From positions 1 to 44,513 of the forward strand of contig CAIMUS010000148.1 in the NCBI GenBank assembly GCA_903844665.1: DNA of 44,513 nt. Reading direction: 5' to 3'. Position numbers and translations under genes: made by a program. Below are positions 4,498 to 42,223 of the stretch, in pieces. How positions within the stretch are numbered: the first letter of the stretch is position 1; each line of letters opens with the position of its first letter. A model generated the notes under the pieces. It did no database searches. It was not told the origin of the DNA and saw nothing but the letters and a program-made list of their open reading frames with translations. Origin of the DNA: an uncultured Pseudomonadota bacterium. Lineage in GTDB: Bacteria; Pseudomonadota; Gammaproteobacteria; Competibacterales; Competibacteraceae.

Positions 4498-4917
4498 ATG
4501 AATATTGTGAAAACCCTGTCGATCCTATTCGTCCTGTTGGCCGGCCTCCTGGCTGCGCCGGTATTCGCCGGGGATAAGGACCCCCTGTTCATCAACATGA
4601 CCACCGATGAGCCACATCGGGCGGATATGGCTGTTACTTTCGGCAAGCATCAACTGGAGAGAGGGCATCCGCTGACGATTTTTCTCAATGACAAGGGGGT
4701 CTATGTGGGTTCGACGGCCAATGCCTCGAAATTCGGTGAACAGCAGCATGTTCTGACCGAACTGATAAGTAAAGGAGCCATCGTCATAGCCTGTCCGATG
4801 TGCATGAAGCATTACGGGGTCAAAGAAACCGAACTACTGCCGGGGATTAAGGTAGGCAAGCCCGAACTGACCGGCGACGCGCTGTTCAAAAACGACACCA
4901 AGACCCTGAGTTGGTGA
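4498..4917 (+). CDS. Exported DsrE-family protein
   Basis: A protein of 139 residues with a cleavable signal peptide (about 1-24, ending PVFA) and a DsrE/DsrF-like fold (about 30-139). Two cysteines sit in IACPMCMKHYGV (Cys99, Cys102), where DsrE-type sulfur carriers have their reactive Cys. A periplasmic location sets it apart from cytoplasmic TusD/DsrE sulfur relay proteins, and its role is unknown. The start at 4498 is preferred because AAGAAGG lies about 8 nt upstream and the signal peptide follows directly; the frame is open back to 4399. It lies downstream of copD on the same strand, so a link to metal or thiol chemistry is possible but not shown. Confidence 0.8.
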   Translation: MNIVKTLSILFVLLAGLLAAPVFAGDKDPLFINMTTDEPHRADMAVTFGKHQLERGHPLTIFLNDKGVYVGSTANASKFGEQQHVLTELISKGAIVIACPMCMKHYGVKETELLPGIKVGKPELTGDALFKNDTKTLSW

Positions 4918-5006: not shown

Positions 5007-5615
5007 CTAACCCTGGGACGACTCGATCATGAATTTGAAGATGCCGAGTATCTTATCGACTTCCCGAATATAGTAATCGTCGAGATCGACAACAACAGTA
5101 TTATTGCTGTATTTCAGATATTTCCAGACAGTACCTGTGGTGACACAGCCATAGATCGCTGCAATATTTCTCTGCTGCCTGTCATTGACAATCCGGCAGG
5201 CAATCAATTCAGCCATACACTGTGGTATACCGATATTGATGTTCTCATTCTTCGCTTCGACAACGGCGACCACCGGCGCATCGATCATCAATTGCTCCGA
5301 TGAAAGGCTAAGTATAAAATCACACGTCCCAGTCAACCCTTGTTGAGGATCGACATTCAAAACTACGCCGGAAAACAGGCTGATTTTATTTTGAAACAGC
5401 AACCTGATTTCAGCCAGAATAGGCGCGATGATAAATTCGGAACGGGCCTTTTCAGTGTTGATCGCATGAGCGAGTGGAACCCAGTTCTGCAGCAATTCAG
5501 ACAGACGCGGAGAAACAGCGCATGAATTTACCTCCGAAAACAGAGATACCTGCTCCTCTACGTTTATACTGAATTTCGTTTTGATATCTTGCAGAGTGAA
5601 GTCACTGTAGGACAT
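5007..5615 (-). CDS. Predicted PD-(D/E)XK-like nuclease domain protein
   Basis: A protein of 202 residues with an arrangement typical of PD-(D/E)XK nucleases: Glu60 in ARSEFIIAPIL, Asp99 in GTCDFILSL, the strand VVAVVEAK with Glu120 and Lys122, then Gln132 in the following helix (GIPQCMAELIAC). Related stand-alone proteins are common in cyanobacteria and proteobacteria and have no assigned role; the core resembles restriction-type endonucleases. No methyltransferase or other restriction partner adjoins it. Its codons are visibly AT-richer than those of neighbouring genes, suggesting recent transfer. The start ATG at 5615 is the first in the frame. The fold call is inferred from motifs only. 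Confidence 0.6.
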   Translation of the reverse strand: MSYSDFTLQDIKTKFSINVEEQVSLFSEVNSCAVSPRLSELLQNWVPLAHAINTEKARSEFIIAPILAEIRLLFQNKISLFSGVVLNVDPQQGLTGTCDFILSLSSEQLMIDAPVVAVVEAKNENINIGIPQCMAELIACRIVNDRQQRNIAAIYGCVTTGTVWKYLKYSNNTVVVDLDDYYIREVDKILGIFKFMIESSQG

Positions 5616-5641
5616 GGTTCACCTCAAAGCGCAGACATAAC

Positions 5642-5667
5642 GGCGCAATACGCTTCGCTATTGCGCC
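5642..5667. repeat. Short palindromic (REP-like) element
   Basis: Perfect inverted repeat GGCGCAATA / TATTGCGCC around CGCTTCGC, followed by a second GC-rich palindromic piece near 5681-5700. It sits between the nuclease-like gene and the broken phaC. It resembles the other short GC-rich palindromes scattered through the window. Confidence 0.6.
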
Positions 5668-5708
5668 CTACAGGATGCTGACCGGCGCGGACGCCGGCGC
5701 TCCCAGAA

Positions 5709-6198
5709 TTACTGCATCAACCGTACCCTCACATAAGACCCCGGCGCCTCTTCGAGCACCGGCAACCGGCCATCTCCCGGCACGCGCGCCGGGACCTGCG
5801 GCCCGGTAAACGGCTCAATCCACTGCCGCCAGTCCACCCACCAGGAACCCTCATGCCGCTCGGCGCTCCCGAGCCATAATTCCGGCGTCTGCGGATGGAT
5901 GGAATGCTGGCCGAAGAAGGAAGAAGGCGGCGGCGCTGCGACGCCACAGTTCGGTGTACTCCTGCCAAAGCGACATCTGGGCCTGGGCCAGCCGGGTCGG
6001 TTCCAGCATCATCTTCTGGGTTAACTGCAAAAACGCCTTGCCGATATTCAGGCTGCTTTCCAGGTCGAGGGAGCCATCCGCCACCTGGCGCCGGAGAAAA
6101 TCACTGACCAGCCGTTGGCTTTTCTGGGCAATGACGGCAATCGTTTGGGTGACTTGCACCGGATCGGGTAATTTGATCTCCAGACCCTGCGAGCTCAT
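5709..6198 (-). pseudogene. phaC: PHA synthase PhaC remnant, centre deleted
   Basis: The 5' part encodes the N-terminus of a class I polyhydroxyalkanoate synthase (LPDPVQVTQTIAVIAQKSQR ... LWQEYTELWRRSAAAFF, about 95 residues). One frame over, with no gap, the sequence continues as the enzyme's C-terminus: ELWLGSAERHEGSWWVDWRQ, then VPARVPGDG and EEAPGSYVRVR up to the TAA at 5709-5711. The alpha/beta-hydrolase core with the lipase-like Cys box and the catalytic Asp and His, some 400 residues, is absent, and the junction near 5915 is also a frameshift. It cannot make polymer. The adjacent phasin gene is intact. A real deletion or an assembly collapse could explain it; a working synthase would have to lie elsewhere. 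Confidence 0.85.
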
Positions 6199-6278
6199 GG
6201 GGCCTCCTCATCGATGGTGGCTGTCATTTATCATTCGTCCTTATTGTTCTTATTATCATTGATTTTGGCAAAACAAAC

Positions 6279-6304
6279 AGGCCACCCGGAAAACCGGATG
6301 GCCT
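6279..6304 (-). terminator. Rho-independent terminator after the phasin gene
   Basis: An 11-bp stem AGGCCATCCGG / CCGGGTGGCCT (one G-U pair, read on the minus strand) with a TTTT loop, followed by the T-rich tail GTTTGTTTTG. It lies 27 bp beyond the phasin stop, in the right orientation. Confidence 0.8.
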
Positions 6305-6331
6305 GGGTTAGGGGCAGACGGGGCGAGACAT

Positions 6332-6775
6332 CTACTTATTGGTGAACAGCGTTTTCAGTTCTTCCACACTTTCGGTAAATCGCTTGTTGATCAGATCGAA
6401 GGCTTCCGTGTTGGTCTTGCTGAACATTTCCGCCAACTCGCGCATATTGGCCAGCGCCTTTTCGAACGTCTGTCCGACCAGTTCCGACTGCTTGGCGCCC
6501 GCTTCCTGAGGGTTGCCGGAACCCGTCATCTGTTGCGCCATGCCGGAAACCTCGGCAACCGCCTGCGCCATGATTTCAGCCTGCCGTTTGGCGATAGCCT
6601 GCATGCCCTCGAGGGCAACCCTGTTGGCCGCCATCAACGCCTCCAGATTCTTGCGTTGGGCGGTCATCAGGGCGGTCATGTCGAAGCCGGGAAGCTTGAG
6701 GTCGCCGAACATCTTGGTGACATCGAACTTGCCCAGGTCGAAATTGGCAAATGGATTGAAAAGATTTTCAGTCAT
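6332..6775 (-). CDS. phaP: Phasin family protein (PHA granule-associated)
   Basis: A protein of 147 residues, almost all helix, with the amphipathic heptad-like pattern of phasins (AQRKNLEALMAANRVALEGM, then MRELAEMFSKTNTEAFDLIN). Phasins coat polyhydroxyalkanoate granules and control their number and size. The N-terminal LFNPFANFDLGKFDVTKMFG resembles the start of gammaproteobacterial phasins. The ATG at 6775 is chosen because GGAGAA lies 5 nt upstream; a GTG one codon earlier is too close to it. It has its own terminator and sits upstream of the phaC remnant, consistent with a former PHA locus. Confidence 0.9.
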   Translation of the reverse strand: MTENLFNPFANFDLGKFDVTKMFGDLKLPGFDMTALMTAQRKNLEALMAANRVALEGMQAIAKRQAEIMAQAVAEVSGMAQQMTGSGNPQEAGAKQSELVGQTFEKALANMRELAEMFSKTNTEAFDLINKRFTESVEELKTLFTNK

Positions 6776-6895
6776 CACACTTCTCCAGGATACCAGCGGT
6801 TATTGTGCAGTGCATCATACAGTTTATTGTGCGCCCTTCAGACCGTCCCTGTCAATTGCTTAACCACAATAAACAAATTAAATCATATACTTAAA

Positions 6896-9586
6896 TTAAC
6901 CCGCCTCCAGGCTTTTGACGACAATCTCGTATACATCCGGCGACAGCGCCGGGGTCTGCCGGATACGCTCCAGTTCGGCCCGCATCAGCGCCTGGCGACT
7001 GGGATCGTATTTACGCCAGCGGGTGAAGGGATTCAGCATCCGCGCGGCGATCTGCGGGTTAAGGGCGTTCAGCGTCACCACCTGTCCGGCGAGGAAGCCA
7101 TAGCCGGAACCGTCGGCGGCATGAAAGCGCACCGGGTTGGACTGGCAGAACGCACCGATCAAAGCCCGCACCTTGTTGGGATTCCTGATGCTGAAATCCG
7201 GATGCTGCAGCAAGGCGTTGACTTCCAGCAGCGTATCGGGCAACTGGGAGGTGGACTGCAGGGCAAACCATTTATCCAGCACCAGGGCGTCATGCCGCCA
7301 GCGCCGGTAAAAGTCGGCCAGCGCGTCGGTGCGTTCGGGACAGGCGCGGTTGGCCAGCAGGCCCAGGGCGCTCAGTTCATCGCTCATATTGTCGGCGCCG
7401 CGGTATTGCCGCAGGCACAGCTCCAGGGTGAACGGCTGTTCCAACTGCATCAGATAATCCAGGCAACGGTTTTTCAGGCTGCGCCGGCCGATGGCGGCGG
7501 CATCGTTGCGATACTCGTCGCTTCGATTGGCCTCGTAGACGGCCAGGAACCGATCCCGCAAGCGCTGCGCCAGCGCCTGCCGGACAAAGTTACGGGCGGC
7601 ATGGATGCCGTCCACATCCACCACTTCCATCTGCTCGGCCAGATAGGTTTCATCCGGCAAATTCAATACCTGATCCAGCAGCGCCGGATCCAGTTCCCGA
7701 TTGTCCAGCGCCTGACCGAAGGCGGCGCTGAAAGCGTCCGACAGCCCCCAGGATCTACCCTGACGGCGGTCCTCGACCAATCGCAGGATGGTGCGCAGCG
7801 CCAGCGTCTGGCCCGCATCCCAGCGGTTGAATTCATCGCTGTCATGAGCCAGCAGGAACATCAGATCGGTATCGCTGTAATCCAGCAACAGCTTGGCCGG
7901 CGCCGAGAATCCCCGCAGTAGGGAGGGCATCGGCGGACCGGCTATATTCACAAAGGTGAAGCGGTGTTCCGGCTCGCGCAGTTCCAACACCCACTGCGTT
8001 CCTGTCGGCGCTGTTTCTCCCGCCAGTTGCAACGGCAGTTCACGGCCGTCGGCATCCAGCAGACCCATGGCCAACGGGAGATGAAACGGCTGCTTGTGAG
8101 GCTGGCCGGGCGTGGGCGGACAGGACTGGCGCACCGTCAGGGTATAGGTCCGCGCGGCGGAATCGTAATCGCCGCTTACCCGCAGTTCCGGCGTACCGGC
8201 CTGGCTGTACCACAGGCGGAACTGGCCGAAATCGACCCCGTTGGCGTCTTCCATGGCCTTGACGAAATCATCGGTGGTCACCGCCTGACCGTCATGACGT
8301 TCGAAGTACCAATCCATCCCGCGCCGAAAGCTTTCCTGGCCCAATAAATTGCGCAGCATGCGCACCACTTCTGCGCCCTTGTTATACACCGTTACTGTGT
8401 AGAAATTATTAATCTCGATAAACGACTCGGGCCGTACCGGATGCGCCATCGGCCCGGCGTCCTGGGGAAACTGGGCGGAGCGCAAAACCCGGACATCGCC
8501 GATGCGCTTGACCGCCCGCGAGTTCATGTCCGCCGAGAATTCCTGATCGCGGAATACCGTCAGACCCTCCTTCAGGCTCAACTGAAACCAGTCCCGGCAG
8601 GTGATCCGGTTACCGGTCCAGTTGTGGAAATATTCATGGCCGATCACGCCTTCGATACCTTGGTAGTCGGCGTCGGTGGCGGTTTCCGGCCGGGCCAGCA
8701 CGTATTTGGTGTTAAAGATATTCAAGCCCTTGTTTTCCATGGCGCCCATGTTGAAATCGCCGACCGCCACGATCATATAGATATCGAGATCGTATTCCCG
8801 GCCGAAGACTGCTTCGTCCCAGGCCATCGCCTTCTTCAGGGAGGCCATGGCATGGCCGCACTGGTCGAGGTTCTGCGGCTCCACATAAATATGCAGCGCC
8901 ACCCGGCGGCCGGAACGGGTGGTGAAGGTATCCTCCACCCGCCGTAAATGACCGGCCACCAGGGCGAAGAGATAGCAGGGCTTTTTGAAAGGATCGCGCC
9001 AAGTGGCCCAGTGGCGGCCATCCCCCAGTTCGCCGCTGGCGATCAGATTGCCGTTGGCCAGCAACACCGGATAGCGGGTCTTGTCGGCGGTCAGGGTGGT
9101 GGTATAAACCGCCATCACATCGGGCCGATCCAGAAAATAGGTGATCTTGCGAAAACCCTCGGCTTCGCACTGGGTGCAGAAATTGCCACTGGATTTATAC
9201 AGTCCCTCCAGCGAGGTATTGTCCTGGGGCCGAATCCGGGTGAGCGCTTCGAGTTCGAACCGTTCCGGCACGACGAAGAGAGTCAGGCGCTCCGACTCGA
9301 CCTCATAACGGTCCGGCGTCAGTTCCACGCCGTCCAGGCGCAATCCCAGCAATTGCACTTGCTGGCCGTCAAGCACCAGGGGACGTGGGCTGCCGGCGGT
9401 CGGAACGTGATTGCGCACCATGCGCAGGCGGGAATGCACCAGGGTGGACGCCTCGCCGAGTTCGAACCGCAGTTCGACCTGTTCGATCAGATAATCCGGC
9501 GGCGTGTAATCACGTAGATAGATCGTTTTGGGTGCTTGTCTTGCAGCAGCGATGTCCAAGGTGGCGCCTCCGCGGTGGTGCTTCAT
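6896..9586 (-). CDS. pepN: Aminopeptidase N (M1 family)
   Basis: Zinc aminopeptidase of 896 residues, close to the E. coli PepN length (870). It removes N-terminal residues from peptides in the cytoplasm. The exopeptidase motif GAMEN is at 281-285. The zinc site HEYFHNWTGNRITCRDW has His317 and His321, with Glu340 in LSLKEGLTVFRDQEF as third ligand and Glu318 as catalytic base. The N-terminal beta-domain starts with KTIYLRDYTPPDYLI, as in PepN, and a long helical C-terminal domain follows. About 15 residues before that motif are unusual, so the real start may be slightly downstream. It stands alone, with 120 bp to the phasin gene and 273 bp to the methyltransferase gene. Confidence 0.95.
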   Translation of the reverse strand: MKHHRGGATLDIAAARQAPKTIYLRDYTPPDYLIEQVELRFELGEASTLVHSRLRMVRNHVPTAGSPRPLVLDGQQVQLLGLRLDGVELTPDRYEVESERLTLFVVPERFELEALTRIRPQDNTSLEGLYKSSGNFCTQCEAEGFRKITYFLDRPDVMAVYTTTLTADKTRYPVLLANGNLIASGELGDGRHWATWRDPFKKPCYLFALVAGHLRRVEDTFTTRSGRRVALHIYVEPQNLDQCGHAMASLKKAMAWDEAVFGREYDLDIYMIVAVGDFNMGAMENKGLNIFNTKYVLARPETATDADYQGIEGVIGHEYFHNWTGNRITCRDWFQLSLKEGLTVFRDQEFSADMNSRAVKRIGDVRVLRSAQFPQDAGPMAHPVRPESFIEINNFYTVTVYNKGAEVVRMLRNLLGQESFRRGMDWYFERHDGQAVTTDDFVKAMEDANGVDFGQFRLWYSQAGTPELRVSGDYDSAARTYTLTVRQSCPPTPGQPHKQPFHLPLAMGLLDADGRELPLQLAGETAPTGTQWVLELREPEHRFTFVNIAGPPMPSLLRGFSAPAKLLLDYSDTDLMFLLAHDSDEFNRWDAGQTLALRTILRLVEDRRQGRSWGLSDAFSAAFGQALDNRELDPALLDQVLNLPDETYLAEQMEVVDVDGIHAARNFVRQALAQRLRDRFLAVYEANRSDEYRNDAAAIGRRSLKNRCLDYLMQLEQPFTLELCLRQYRGADNMSDELSALGLLANRACPERTDALADFYRRWRHDALVLDKWFALQSTSQLPDTLLEVNALLQHPDFSIRNPNKVRALIGAFCQSNPVRFHAADGSGYGFLAGQVVTLNALNPQIAARMLNPFTRWRKYDPSRQALMRAELERIRQTPALSPDVYEIVVKSLEAG

Positions 9587-11929: not shown

Positions 11930-12352
11930 TTAGGCCACCTGTTCGGGGTGGGACTCTACCTGTTCAAGAATCTCTGCTACCCGTCTTCCTGCCTCTCGCG
12001 GAGAGGATTCTTTGAGGAACTGAAATTGCCGAAGTAAGGATGCTATACGCATTAAATCAACATCCTCGGCAACGACTGGAATGATCCGTTTCTTATCCGC
12101 CAACGCCGCACCAAGCTCGAAAAAAGTCCAAGGGCTTTCAACACTATTTGGGCTGAGGATGATAATAAGAGTACTGCTGTCTCTGAGCGCTTCTTGGATC
12201 TTGTCCTGCCAGCGTTCCCCAGGAGCCAATTCGGAAACATCAAACCAAGTTTTGACACCTGCATCTCTTAGAGCAGAGGCGAACTCCGACACCCAAGGTT
12301 TGTCTTTGAATGAATAGGAGAGGAAAACATCGTAACGCTGTTTCTCAGCCAT
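11930..12352 (-). CDS. TIR-domain protein (second of a pair)
   Basis: A TIR-only protein of 140 residues. Strand A is YDVFLSYSFKDKPWVSEFAS, then a box-2-like FDVSELAPGERWQDKI, strands LIIILSP and IIPVVAE, and the helix SPWTFFELGAALA with Glu79 at the position of the catalytic Glu of NAD-cleaving TIR domains. Bacterial TIR proteins often cleave NAD+ or make cyclic ADP-ribose signals during phage defence. The ATG at 12352 is chosen because GGGAGA lies 5 nt upstream and the domain starts there. It overlaps the upstream TIR gene by 8 bp. Its stop lies in GCCTAAC, a possible half attC box. No effector is fused to it. Confidence 0.85.
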   Translation of the reverse strand: MAEKQRYDVFLSYSFKDKPWVSEFASALRDAGVKTWFDVSELAPGERWQDKIQEALRDSSTLIIILSPNSVESPWTFFELGAALADKKRIIPVVAEDVDLMRIASLLRQFQFLKESSPREAGRRVAEILEQVESHPEQVA

Positions 12353-12773
12353 TGTTTCTCCCGGACGATACCCGCGCACCAAGCTGATTAAAGTACTGGT
12401 CGATGTCGTTAAGCCGAATGATATCTCTTTTCTTGAGAAAGACCGGGGCATTCGGCTGGGCTTGGAATTCTTTGGGCGTTAAACCATGGAGTACGACAAC
12501 TATAGGAATACGGCGAATCCATGCAGCACCGATCTCAGCCCATACATAGGGTCTCTCAAGCGCCCAAGGCGTAAATAACACGACGAGCTCGTCAGCTTTG
12601 TCCAGGAACTCGCGAATGTCTTCCTCGAATTCTGCCCCAACGTCAACGTCGGCCTCATCGAGAAACGGCTGCGCCCCACGAGACGAGATTTCCCTAGCGA
12701 TCTGACGAGCCACCCAGGTGTCTTCGCCAGAGTGACTGACGAAAACCAGTCTTGCACCATGTGAAGAGACCAT
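12345..12773 (-). CDS. TIR-domain protein (first of a pair)
   Basis: A TIR-only protein of 142 residues. It opens with LVFVSHSGEDTWVARQIARE (strand A and helix A), then GAQPFLDEADVDVGAEFEED (BB-loop region), ELVVLFTPWALERPYVWAEI with Glu80 in the catalytic position, and IPIVVVLHGL. It differs clearly from its partner, so the pair is not a recent duplication. The start at 12773 is set by the domain start and by AAGG 6 nt upstream; the frame is open upstream to 12959, but those codons run through a palindromic repeat and look noncoding. The overlap with the next TIR gene suggests the two products act together. Confidence 0.83.
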   Translation of the reverse strand: MVSSHGARLVFVSHSGEDTWVARQIAREISSRGAQPFLDEADVDVGAEFEEDIREFLDKADELVVLFTPWALERPYVWAEIGAAWIRRIPIVVVLHGLTPKEFQAQPNAPVFLKKRDIIRLNDIDQYFNQLGARVSSGRNNG

Positions 12774-12812
12774 TTTTACCTTATTATTGGAATTTCTGTC
12801 ATCAGTCCCGCA

Positions 12813-12888
12813 GGATGGGCACGCTTCGCTTTGCCCATCCTCCCGATAGAGACAACGATGGGCACAGCGCAATGCGCCTTTGCCCATC
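12813..12888. repeat. Two tandem hairpin repeats
   Basis: Two related palindromes lie in the 142-bp gap between the TIR pair and ihfA. The first is GGATGGGCA / TGCCCATCC (12813-12840) around CGCTTCGC. The second is GATGGGCA / TGCCCATC (12857-12888), with an inner GCGC-AAT-GCGC hairpin. They are probably copies of one dispersed REP-like element and could also insulate the TIR genes from the translation operon. Confidence 0.65.
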
Positions 12889-12915
12889 CTACCGTTGATA
12901 TAAACAGACCGTACA

Positions 12916-13233
12916 TCAAACCCAATTGGTCTCTTCCTCGGCTTCCCCCTCGAAAACATCTATCCGCGATTTCAGCTTCTGGCCGGCCCGGAAGGTCACC
13001 ACCCGACGGGCCGTGATCGGAATCTCCTGGCCGGTTTTAGGATTGCGGCCAGGACGCTGATTCTTATTGCGCAAATCGAAATTGCCGAAACCCGACAGCT
13101 TGACCTGCTCCCCTTGCTCCAAGGCTGCCCGGATTTCCTCAAAGAACAATTCCACCAAGTCCTTGGCATCCCGTTTGTTCATGCCCAGTTCTTCAAAAAG
13201 CATTTCTGCCATATCCGCTTTCGTCAATGCCAT
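12916..13233 (-). CDS. ihfA: Integration host factor subunit alpha
   Basis: A DNA-bending HU/IHF family protein of 105 residues (E. coli IhfA has 99). It has the family arm [20 protein letters not shown], whose Pro intercalates into DNA, and the IhfA-type start [20 protein letters not shown]. With IhfB it forms IHF, which shapes DNA for transcription, replication and recombination, including integron and phage events. It starts 5 bp after pheT, in the standard gammaproteobacterial order. In many relatives a merR-type gene follows; here the repeats and TIR genes take that place. Confidence 0.97.
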
Positions 13234-38272: not shown

Positions 38273-41200
38273 ATGCCTACTCATTTCGACCTCATCATCA
38301 CCGTCGACGCCCCGAGTCACACCGCCGAGTTTCGGCTGCTCGACGCCCACGGTTCGCAACTCGCCTACCACCACACGGATTTCAAAACCATCAGCGTCAG
38401 CCATCGGCAGGGTCTGTTCGACCTGCGGAATTACCTCCGTCTCTACGTCGAGGAAGGGAAAGAGACGGCGGCGGTCGCCGAGATCGGCGTCTGTATCGCC
38501 GAGGAAGTGCTCGGTCAGGACATTTTCGAAAAGCTCTGGAAGTCCGAAAGCCAGCGCACGCTGCGTATCCAGTTGCCGGGAGCCGCCGAGGAGGAAAACC
38601 ATCTCGCCGCCGCACTGGCCCGCGTGCCGTGGGAAATTGCGAAGCCCAAGGCCGATGCCGAGACCCTTGGCGAGCGCAACCTGCTCGTCCGCGTGGTCCA
38701 CGACCGGCAGGCCCCGACCTCCCAGCCGGTCGAACTGGCGCCCGACGAGCCGCTGCGCGTGCTCTTTGTCTTCGCCGAGGCGCGCGGCTCGCGACCGCTG
38801 GGCGCGCGGGAGGAGCGGCTGGACCTGCTGCGGCTTTTTGCCAAGGAAATCTACCCGCAGCGCCGGGTCGTCGCCCATTTCCTCACGCACGGCGTCACCC
38901 GCGAACGGCTGATCGACCAGATTCAGCGGAACAACGGCTATCACGTCGTCCACTGGAGCGGACACGGGAACCTGAACCGGCTGGAGCTTGCCAGGCCCGG
39001 CGGCGCGAAAGACCATCTTTCCGGCGAAGAGTTGCTCGACCTGTTCACCGACGCGGGCGGCTTTCTGCCCCGGCTGGTGTTCCTCAGCGCCTGCCATTCC
39101 GGCGACATCCTGCGGGTGAAGGACTGGAACGATTTTCTCGCCATCGCCCAGGGCAAGGAGCCGGGCGCGAAGGAAGCGGCCACCAAAGACTTCGACCTCC
39201 AGGAACAACCCGGCTTTACCGGCACTGCTCACGCTCTGCTGCACGGCGGCGTGCCCTCGGTGGTGGCGATGCGCTACGCCGTGGGCGACGACTACGCCCG
39301 CGAACTGGCGGTGGAGTTTTACCGCGCCCTGCTCGCCCATCCCCAGCCCAAGAACGCCGCCGCCGCCCTCACCCTGGCCCGGAAAGCCTTGCTGGATGGC
39401 AAGAGGCACGATCCCGCCCGCTTTACCGTCTGCGATCACGCCACGCCGGTGCTCTACGGGGCGGAACAGCCCGGCCTCACCCTGGCGAAAGGCAGCAGCC
39501 CGGACCTCAATCCGCGCAATCCCCGCCTGCACCGGATCGCCGAGCTGACCGCAGCGGGGCACGAATACTTCGTCGGGCGCACCTGGGAACTGGCCGGACT
39601 GGGAGCGGATTTCATCGGCTCCACCAGCGGGGCGGAGGTGAAACCGGTCGCGGTCATCACCGGACTGGGCGGCATGGGCAAGACCGCCCTGGTGGCCGAG
39701 ACGCTGGCGCTGTGGGAGACGCGCTTCGAGTGGGTGTTGCTCTATCAGGCCAAGCCCAACGCCCTCGGCTTCGACGCCACGCTGCGCGACATCCACCTGA
39801 AGCTCGTGGGCGAACTGGGCCGCTACTACGACTATATGCAGGTCCACCGCGCCGATGCCCTCTACCGCGACGCCACCGCCGAGTTCACCGGCCCCGAACG
39901 GCTGGAACGGCTGACGTACAATCTCATCCGCGCCCTGCAGGACGAAGCCATCCTGCTGGTGCTCGACAACTTCGAGACCAACCTGAAACCGCAGGCCGAG
40001 CCGTCGTCCGTCGTCGGGCAACCGGTCTGGGCCTGCCAGGACCCGGCCTGGGACCGCTGTCTGGCGGCGCTGGCCCAGGAACTCGCCGGCTCGCCGTCAC
40101 GGGTGCTGATCACCTCCCGCCGGCCGCTGGCGGCGCTGGCGGCCGGCACGGGCTATCCCGTCCGGCTCGGCCCGCTGCCGGCAACGGAGGCGGCGCTCTA
40201 CCTGCAGGCGCATCCCGCCCTCAGCCGGATGGTGTTTGGCCCCAACGCCGGGGAAAGGGAGCTCGCCCTGCGCCTGCTGAACGCCAGCCGCTTTCACCCG
40301 CTGCTCATGGACCGGCTCGCCCGGCTGGCGGCGGACGCCAAGTTGCGGCCGCAACTCCTCCAGGCGCTCGATACGCTGGAGCAGAGCAAGGACTTCGCCC
40401 AACTCCCGGCGCTGTTCGCCACCACGCCCGGCGATGCGAAGGAACTGGCCTATCTGAACGACGCGCTCGCTACGTCACTCGATCAACTCATCCGCGATGC
40501 CAGCCCGGACGCCCGGCGCGTGTTGTGGATGATTGCGGTAGCCAACGAGCCGGTAGCGCTGGGGCTGCTGAACAGCGTGTGGAGCGAGGCGCCCCCGCCC
40601 CGTCCCGAGATCCAGCCGCTCCTGCGCCATCTGCTCAGCGTGGGGCTGGTCACGGAGGAACGCGAAGGGCCGGACGATGCCAATCCCGACCTCACCTGCC
40701 ACGAACTGGTGCGGGAGCGTATTCGCGCCTGGATGGAGCAGCAGCTTCGGGACCGGGGCGAGTGGACGGAGAACGCCATCCGCCTTGCCTACGCCGAGCG
40801 GCTGGAGGCGGTGTACAACGCGCTCCAGCACCAGAACATGACCGCCGCCCTGCAGGCCGGCAGCCGCGCCCTGGTCTATTGCGTGCAGGCCGGGGCCTGG
40901 GACCGGCTGGGCGACTTCGCCAGCTATGTTGTCACCGGCACCAGCGATCCGCGCCTGCTGGCGGGGCTGATCCCGCACCTCCAGACCGCCGCCGAGTCCG
41001 CTCCCGAGGGCCGGCCGCGCTGGAGCTGCCTCGCCATCCTCGCCAATGCGTTGCAGAATGGTGGCCGCCCCGATGCCGGCCTGCCGTTCTACGAACAGGC
41101 GGCTACCCTGGCCCGCGCCGCCGCCGAGGCCGGGGGCGAAAGCTCGCAACAGGCTTGGGCGGACCTGGCCTGGATCACCGGCAACTGGGCGAACGCTCTC

Positions 41201-42223
41201 GTGATGACCAGCAATCTGGACGCCGCCCGCCAGCGGCAGCTTGAATCCGCCGAGGCAAATAAGCAGGCGGGCCGCCCACAGGTCGATGTCATTGGCAGCG
41301 AGCTGGAAGCCCTGCGCATCGACATCAGGCAGGGCCAAGTCGAAACGGCCTTGCCGGAGGTGGAGGCGCGGCTGGCGCGGGTGGCGGCTTGGTGGCAACG
41401 GTATCGCTCCGGCCAGCCCGTGCCCGAGGCTCCGGATGCCGAAATGCTCGCCCGCGCCTACATCAGCGCGCTCGACATCGCCATGAATGCCGACGTTGCC
41501 CGGCAGGACTGGGAATCCGCCCTGCGCCGGCTGGATGCCGTGCTGGAGGTCAAGCGCGCCTTGGAGCGCCCGGCGAAGGACATCGCCGCCACGCGGGGTA
41601 CCCGGGCCAACGTGCTGAAGGAGCTGGGCCGCTTCAGCGAGGCCAGAGCCGAGTTGGAAGATCTCGCTCAGCTGTTCCAAAATAGTCCGGTCGATACCGC
41701 CAAGGTGCTCAGCTCCCTCGCCGGCCTGTTCGACAAACAAGGCGACGTGGCCCAGGCCATCACCCAGCAGCGCCGCGCCCTCGCCCTTTGCGAGCAATTG
41801 CCCGATCCCGCCGACCGCGCCAGTTCGCACAACAACCTGGCCAACTACCTCGAACGCAGCGGCGCCCCGGCTGCCCTCGCCGAAGCGCCCCGCCACCGGC
41901 TTGCCGCCCTGATTTACTGCCTCGTCGTAAACGCTGGCCAAGCACTTCAGACCTACCTGCGCAACTACGCCGTCCTTTTCCGCCGCGCCCACGCCGCCGG
42001 CGCCGAGTTGGCCGTACCCCGCGTGGCCGAACTGCTCGCCGACCCGGCCTTTCACCCGCTTGAGCAGTGGCTCCGTCAGCGCCAGGTGAATGTGACCGAA
42101 CTGCAAGCCGAGGTGGACCAGGTCCTTGAGCAGGCACGGCAAGCCGCTGGATCTTCGCGAGTCGCAAAGAAATCCAGCATATTCCGAAGGCTGCTTGATA
42201 GAGTTCTGGGCCAGCAGGAGTAA
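38273..42223 (+). CDS. CHAT protease-NB-ARC-TPR (STAND) protein
   Basis: A single protein of 1316 residues. An N-terminal module (about 1-150) precedes a CHAT caspase-like protease (about 160-395) with catalytic His231 in VVHWSGHGN and Cys274 in VFLSACHSG. A NTPase of the NB-ARC/STAND kind follows, beginning at YFVGR (432-436), with Walker A GLGGMGKT (464-471), Walker B ILLVLDNFE (560-568) and the sensor segment VLITSRRPL. The C-terminal half (about 800-1290) is helical with TPR units such as RRALALCEQLPDPADRASSH. STAND proteins sense a ligand through the repeats, oligomerise and switch on the effector, here a protease. Comparable proteins act in bacterial immunity. Composition is more GC-rich than the neighbours, and repeats flank it. 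Confidence 0.92.
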   Translation: MPTHFDLIITVDAPSHTAEFRLLDAHGSQLAYHHTDFKTISVSHRQGLFDLRNYLRLYVEEGKETAAVAEIGVCIAEEVLGQDIFEKLWKSESQRTLRIQLPGAAEEENHLAAALARVPWEIAKPKADAETLGERNLLVRVVHDRQAPTSQPVELAPDEPLRVLFVFAEARGSRPLGAREERLDLLRLFAKEIYPQRRVVAHFLTHGVTRERLIDQIQRNNGYHVVHWSGHGNLNRLELARPGGAKDHLSGEELLDLFTDAGGFLPRLVFLSACHSGDILRVKDWNDFLAIAQGKEPGAKEAATKDFDLQEQPGFTGTAHALLHGGVPSVVAMRYAVGDDYARELAVEFYRALLAHPQPKNAAAALTLARKALLDGKRHDPARFTVCDHATPVLYGAEQPGLTLAKGSSPDLNPRNPRLHRIAELTAAGHEYFVGRTWELAGLGADFIGSTSGAEVKPVAVITGLGGMGKTALVAETLALWETRFEWVLLYQAKPNALGFDATLRDIHLKLVGELGRYYDYMQVHRADALYRDATAEFTGPERLERLTYNLIRALQDEAILLVLDNFETNLKPQAEPSSVVGQPVWACQDPAWDRCLAALAQELAGSPSRVLITSRRPLAALAAGTGYPVRLGPLPATEAALYLQAHPALSRMVFGPNAGERELALRLLNASRFHPLLMDRLARLAADAKLRPQLLQALDTLEQSKDFAQLPALFATTPGDAKELAYLNDALATSLDQLIRDASPDARRVLWMIAVANEPVALGLLNSVWSEAPPPRPEIQPLLRHLLSVGLVTEEREGPDDANPDLTCHELVRERIRAWMEQQLRDRGEWTENAIRLAYAERLEAVYNALQHQNMTAALQAGSRALVYCVQAGAWDRLGDFASYVVTGTSDPRLLAGLIPHLQTAAESAPEGRPRWSCLAILANALQNGGRPDAGLPFYEQAATLARAAAEAGGESSQQAWADLAWITGNWANALVMTSNLDAARQRQLESAEANKQAGRPQVDVIGSELEALRIDIRQGQVETALPEVEARLARVAAWWQRYRSGQPVPEAPDAEMLARAYISALDIAMNADVARQDWESALRRLDAVLEVKRALERPAKDIAATRGTRANVLKELGRFSEARAELEDLAQLFQNSPVDTAKVLSSLAGLFDKQGDVAQAITQQRRALALCEQLPDPADRASSHNNLANYLERSGAPAALAEAPRHRLAALIYCLVVNAGQALQTYLRNYAVLFRRAHAAGAELAVPRVAELLADPAFHPLEQWLRQRQVNVTELQAEVDQVLEQARQAAGSSRVAKKSSIFRRLLDRVLGQQE

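Follow-up and report, generated by a model that had tools for sequence, protein, structure and literature searches.

Bacterial pseudogenes that arise by internal deletion in multi-copy gene families are ordinary. They show a single internal loss, intact neighbours and other family members that are complete, and nothing distinguishes the locus described here from them. The locus is a remnant of the PHA synthase gene phaC, and lies in a 44,513-nt stretch of DNA (the window) from an uncultured member of the Competibacteraceae. The closest described system is the pepN/phasin-linked class I PhaC of that family (TIGR01838; PF07167), which is found at the same site beside the same neighbours and is homologous to the remnant at both ends. 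The remnant differs in its broken reading frame and in the absence of approximately 440 codons from the interior, among them those for the entire active site. For PHA synthase, the available portion of PMC5509742 describes a catalytic triad of Cys, Asp and His and a role of the PhaC N-terminus in dimer stabilisation; the available portion of PMC10867992 reports that PhaC N-termini affect dimerisation and granule morphology.

With a probability of roughly 0.78, the remnant is a pseudogene that originated by internal deletion in the phaC of an ancestral pepN-phasin-phaC locus. Relative to intact orthologues it carries disabling lesions, namely a large deletion and a frameshift, and it is probably a phaC pseudogene of recent origin in a multi-copy family. 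A literature search of titles and the beginnings of abstracts found no report of phaC loss in Competibacteraceae, and no novelty is claimed.

Structure of the remnant and its lesions

In the remnant, some 95 codons from the start of a class I PHA synthase gene are fused to some 60 from its end (Table 1). The first-pass annotation had described a union of some 95 N-terminal and 62 C-terminal residues, and comparison with the PhaC proteins of relatives and with TIGR01838 agrees with this. The N part is ~42-54% identical over ~82 residues to the full-length PhaC of the 16 relatives whose loci were fetched, with the homology extending over approximately the first 92 residues of the 115-codon ORF. 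A Shine-Dalgarno-like GAGGAGG sequence is found close upstream of the ATG codon. The C part corresponds to positions 475-531 of the 532 in TIGR01838 (E 3.4e-16), with a score far below the whole-protein cut-off, as expected because it is a fragment, and is also homologous to the PhaC C-termini of relatives. Its frame is open from at least position 5930 to the authentic stop codon and encodes a typical PhaC C-terminus (GSWW...APGSYV). Thus both authentic phaC ends are kept, and neither part is interrupted by a stop in its own frame. Profile searches of the genome found no PF07167 (PhaC_N) match at this locus, and with Pfam neither the 115-aa ORF nor the C part matched any PhaC family.

Table 1. 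Features of the remnant and its conserved neighbours, with positions in the window
Feature	Position	Strand	Remarks
phaC remnant (probable pseudogene)	5709..6198	-	ATG at 6198, TAA at 5709-5711
C-terminal PhaC part	5712..5891	-	60 codons, QTPELW to RVRLMQ
115-codon ORF from retained start	5851..6198	-	PhaC N-domain plus out-of-frame tail
Probable deletion joint stretch	5892..5906	-	between FGQ and QTPELW; approximate, relatives only ~50% identical
N-terminal PhaC part	5907..6198	-	95 codons when one 7-nt repeat copy is not counted; FGQ motif as end
Exact 7-nt tandem duplication	5913..5926	-	CTTCTTC twice on minus strand; likely frameshift
Terminator-like hairpin 3' of phasin gene	6278..6305	-	
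Intact phasin gene	6332..6778	-	Pfam Phasin_2, E 1.3e-22
pepN, aminopeptidase N	6896..9586	-	ancestral neighbour

The loss itself is evident, but it is larger than the 400 or so codons of the first-pass annotation: ~438-443 codons (~1.3 kb) are absent relative to a 604-aa PhaC from a relative (L061), corresponding in the alignment to residues ~102 to 543 of that protein. Cys 338, Asp 494 and His 522 of L061, located by their motifs, all fall within this interval, and the Cys of the lipase-box-like G-x-C-x-G motif, the Asp and the His are absent from the remnant. Judged from its sequence, the remnant is no longer able to encode an active PHA synthase.

The reading frame of the N part leads into FFLLRP, and reading the DNA one base further on yields FFGQ. 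In 15 of the 16 aligned relatives the conserved N-domain LW is shortly followed by a G-Q pair, which takes the form FGQ in 10 (counted on the alignment). In the remnant, FGQ is regained in the other frame directly past the exact 7-nt repeat, which lies N-terminal to the deletion joint. If one copy of the repeat is left out, FGQ lies seven residues past LW, as in nine of the 10 relatives that have it. The frequency of FGQ is ~0.09% of six-residue stretches in all frames of the window, and that of the looser motif [FL]x(0,1)GQ is 0.27%. In addition, 487 nt less 7 nt is exactly 160 codons, with 95 in the N part, 60 in the C part and 5 assigned to neither. Since FGQ and the C part fall in one frame, the number of nucleotides deleted was most likely divisible by three, with the frameshift being a separate short duplication. 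The remnant therefore probably carries two lesions, as far as its sequence can tell, and the direct join with a frameshift that had first been noted stands with respect to the broken frame, but not as a single event, because the deletion keeps the frame and the shift probably has its own origin in the duplication. A single-base insertion would also account for the change of frame, but is less neat, as it leaves a linker that is longer by two residues.

Deletion between direct repeats was one mechanism considered; it would leave a single copy of the repeat, the lost flanks being gone. A scan for repeats between positions 4900 and 7000 yielded two imperfect direct pairs (6638/6902 and 5368/6286) as well as an inverted pair, and in no case did both copies fall within the remnant. 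Directly past the stop codon of the remnant is a partly palindromic multicopy repeat (5629-5713), which has 44 matches in the genome, including itself, mostly to one half or the other. It was considered as a cause of the internal deletion and rejected, as it is outside the remnant and offers no explanation. Next to it, a 202-aa ORF (5007-5615, minus strand) has no Pfam match above the cut-off, only weak NCBIfam matches and no match in the 16 fetched stretches from relatives; it may be an insertion beside the remnant. Elsewhere in the window, an ORF at 12345-12959 (minus strand) resembles a TIR-type domain by eye (FVSHSGEDTWVARQIAREI), and a 1316-aa ORF at 38273-42223 (plus strand) seems on visual inspection to encode a CHAT-type protease joined to a P-loop part and repeats.

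The syntenic locus and the other phaC genes

The survey of relatives covered 30 genomes; 18 besides this one belong to the family and one to the order, and the locus was fetched from 16 of these 19 (G001-G004, G006-G008, G010-G016, G018 and G019). The three left out were G005, which has no such phasin and an N match of only 31%, and G009 and G017, in which phaC is present and the phasin match is weak and on a different contig. A full-length phaC (598-663 aa) adjoins the same phasin gene in all 16 fetched loci, and pepN is also present in 15; in the order-level genome (G019) the phasin gene is flanked by two phaC genes. The presence of a full-length phaC beside the same phasin gene and pepN in relatives indicates that the remnant represents the ancestral gene in its ancestral position. 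Its descent from a class I PHA synthase is thus evident from gene order, together with the homologous C-terminus. Loss of a conserved downstream gene was considered as a sign of a larger rearrangement and set aside: downstream genes are common to at most five of 15 loci, and none matched the window. Among the 39 family genomes searched, no other belongs to the same genus as this one, so that no close sister genome with the same lesion is found in the genus, and the best phasin identity among the best 80 of 100 confirmed loci is 66%, consistent with there being no near relative.

The phasin gene, the only one of TIGR01841 type in the genome, is intact and followed by its own terminator-like hairpin, as had been annotated. 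The hairpin is of 12 bp, followed by TTTGTTTT. Inspection by eye shows a related hairpin (GGACAGG.C ... GGCCTGTCC or close to it) in the corresponding gap of 10 of the 16 relatives. In three others (L059, L064 and L067) the gap holds inverted repeats that are GC-rich and differ in sequence, and in a further three (L053, L065 and L066) no hairpin of this type was noticed by eye in the part of the gap inspected. Given the similar hairpin in relatives, the terminator looks old at this locus and unconnected to the decay of phaC.

The 4.88-Mb genome (348 contigs, completeness 98.93%, contamination 1.7%) has two complete phaC genes by PF07167 and only these two, one on contig C46 (650-aa ORF) and one on contig C180 (579-aa ORF). 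A search with the missing middle, as 450 aa of a relative's PhaC, matched only these copies (61% on C46, 39% on C180). The search for a complete phaC that the first-pass annotation had called for has thus been run, and its proposal that the organism must rely on another copy is supported. In the 19 other genomes, phaC matches are present in 13, with 1 to 6 each, some of them partial or weak.

A combined tree was built from the remnant and 28 other sequences, with one of the 29 loci dropped; in it the remnant falls beside the main clade of pepN/phasin-linked syntenic genes, with a support of 48. The C46 copy groups with second copies of relatives (G009_C194, G019a, G003_C272, G001_C291 and others; support 77), and the C180 copy belongs to a distant group. 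Placement of the remnant has a support of 37 in a tree of the N part and of 35 in a tree of the C part, where it lies beside G009_C225. These single-part trees leave its place weakly supported, and orthology is carried by gene order. The clade positions of C46 and C180 make the spare copies look like old paralogues, not recent duplicates, which is what the trees suggest at the level of sequence. The idea of decay after duplication fits insofar as other complete copies exist, but an origin of the spare copies in recent duplication is not supported by the paralogue trees, in which some nodes have low support.

Over 55-57 residues, the C part shares 63% identity with the C-terminus encoded on C46, a percentage higher than that of the best syntenic gene (57%, or 60% in another comparison), but not a higher bit score. 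A chimeric origin, with the N part from one phaC and a C part of the C46 type, is not favoured, as the C-part tree, with its low support for the placement of the remnant, does not group it with C46. Judged from the sequence comparison, gene conversion of the C part with C46 may have occurred.

Age of the loss and alternative explanations

The age of the loss was approached through branch ratios, that is, the length of the own branch relative to the rest of the tree, with the topology of 16 taxa fixed from pepN and phasin. The N part has a ratio of 0.111 (bootstrap 0.059-0.186) and the C part one of 0.292 (0.177-0.50); the intact phasin has 0.200 (0.14-0.272) and pepN 0.076 (0.07-0.09), with 40 resamplings each and 8 for pepN. 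The intervals of both parts overlap that of phasin, those of the C part and phasin lie above pepN, and those of the N and C parts just overlap. Thus the N part evolves no faster than the intact phasin. By codon position, both parts differ in the way that two groups of relatives whose genes are intact differ from each other, and the GC content by codon position follows the pattern of coding sequence. The rate of the N part, no higher than that of phasin, and the coding-like pattern are not the mark of old decay, and imply that either the loss is recent or the N part has been kept.

The first-pass annotation had left the choice between a real deletion and a collapse of the assembly. A complete phaC may be present in the organism, the assembler having joined both ends and dropped ~1.3 kb. 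The assembly is a draft in 348 contigs, data of this sort often contain mixed strains, and phaC is difficult for assemblers because its interior is highly conserved among family members. Frame breaks in phaC are also known from other drafts of the family. Among 66 N-domain match rows, nine others have open frames of <500 aa, and of the six inspected (all but G038:C54, G048:C606 and G045:C121), two run into a contig end (G036 and G034) and four have a frame break (G030:C16, G032:C92, G039:C92 and G010:C20). These four resemble the remnant in their interrupted reading frame, but differ from it in having no large deletion, and may be sequencing errors. Frame breaks are therefore not rare in these drafts, whereas the large deletion is seen in this genome only. 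In one of them (L163, G010:C20:13000-19000), a frame break near residue 200 splits what is a second paralogue of phaC in that relative; phaC copies in the family may thus decay more than once, unless this break is a sequencing error. Against a mis-join, no orphan middle is found on any other contig, and the joint is internal to the window, at 5.9 kb from the beginning, and not at a contig end. The joint is also in frame when FGQ is placed on the N side, a weak argument in that one deletion in three would be. Collapse is accordingly the less likely of the two, and we regard it as unlikely.

Less likely still, the 115-codon ORF could be retained as a small functional PhaC N-domain protein, catalytically dead, that binds granules or PhaC partners and tunes the dimerisation or granule attachment of the remaining synthases. 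The retained start codon and GAGGAGG ribosome-binding site would suit such a protein, as would the roles in dimerisation and granule morphology published for PhaC N-termini (in the available portions of PMC10867992 and PMC5509742) and the rate of the N part, which does not exceed that of phasin, whereas the out-of-frame C part may be faster. However, with the N and C intervals just overlapping, a recent deletion yields the same picture, and no comparable short form is present among the six short-frame matches inspected. Ribosomal frameshifting at the TTC/CTT run, yielding a mini-PhaC of ~160 residues from two parts that are each open in their own frame, is barely credible, as no standard slippery signal is recognised there by eye, the exact duplication is a simpler account of the change of frame, and the candidate site is seen in one genome only.

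Consequences for the lineage

The preferred reading remains a real deletion and no assembly error, in which the phaC gene of the ancestral pepN-phasin-phaC locus would have lost a ~1.3-kb interior that included the lipase box and the catalytic-triad region. The tandem duplication would shift the frame just before the joint as a separate lesion, and the short product, if made, would be without function. The class I enzyme encoded on C46 would now serve the phasin-coated granules.

Beyond annotation the importance is small, this being ordinary gene loss, and counts of phaC by fragments would be misleading at this locus. The lineage seems to have dispensed with the phasin-linked synthase, which is retained at all 16 fetched loci of relatives, and models of its granule metabolism should therefore use the enzymes encoded on C46 and C180.
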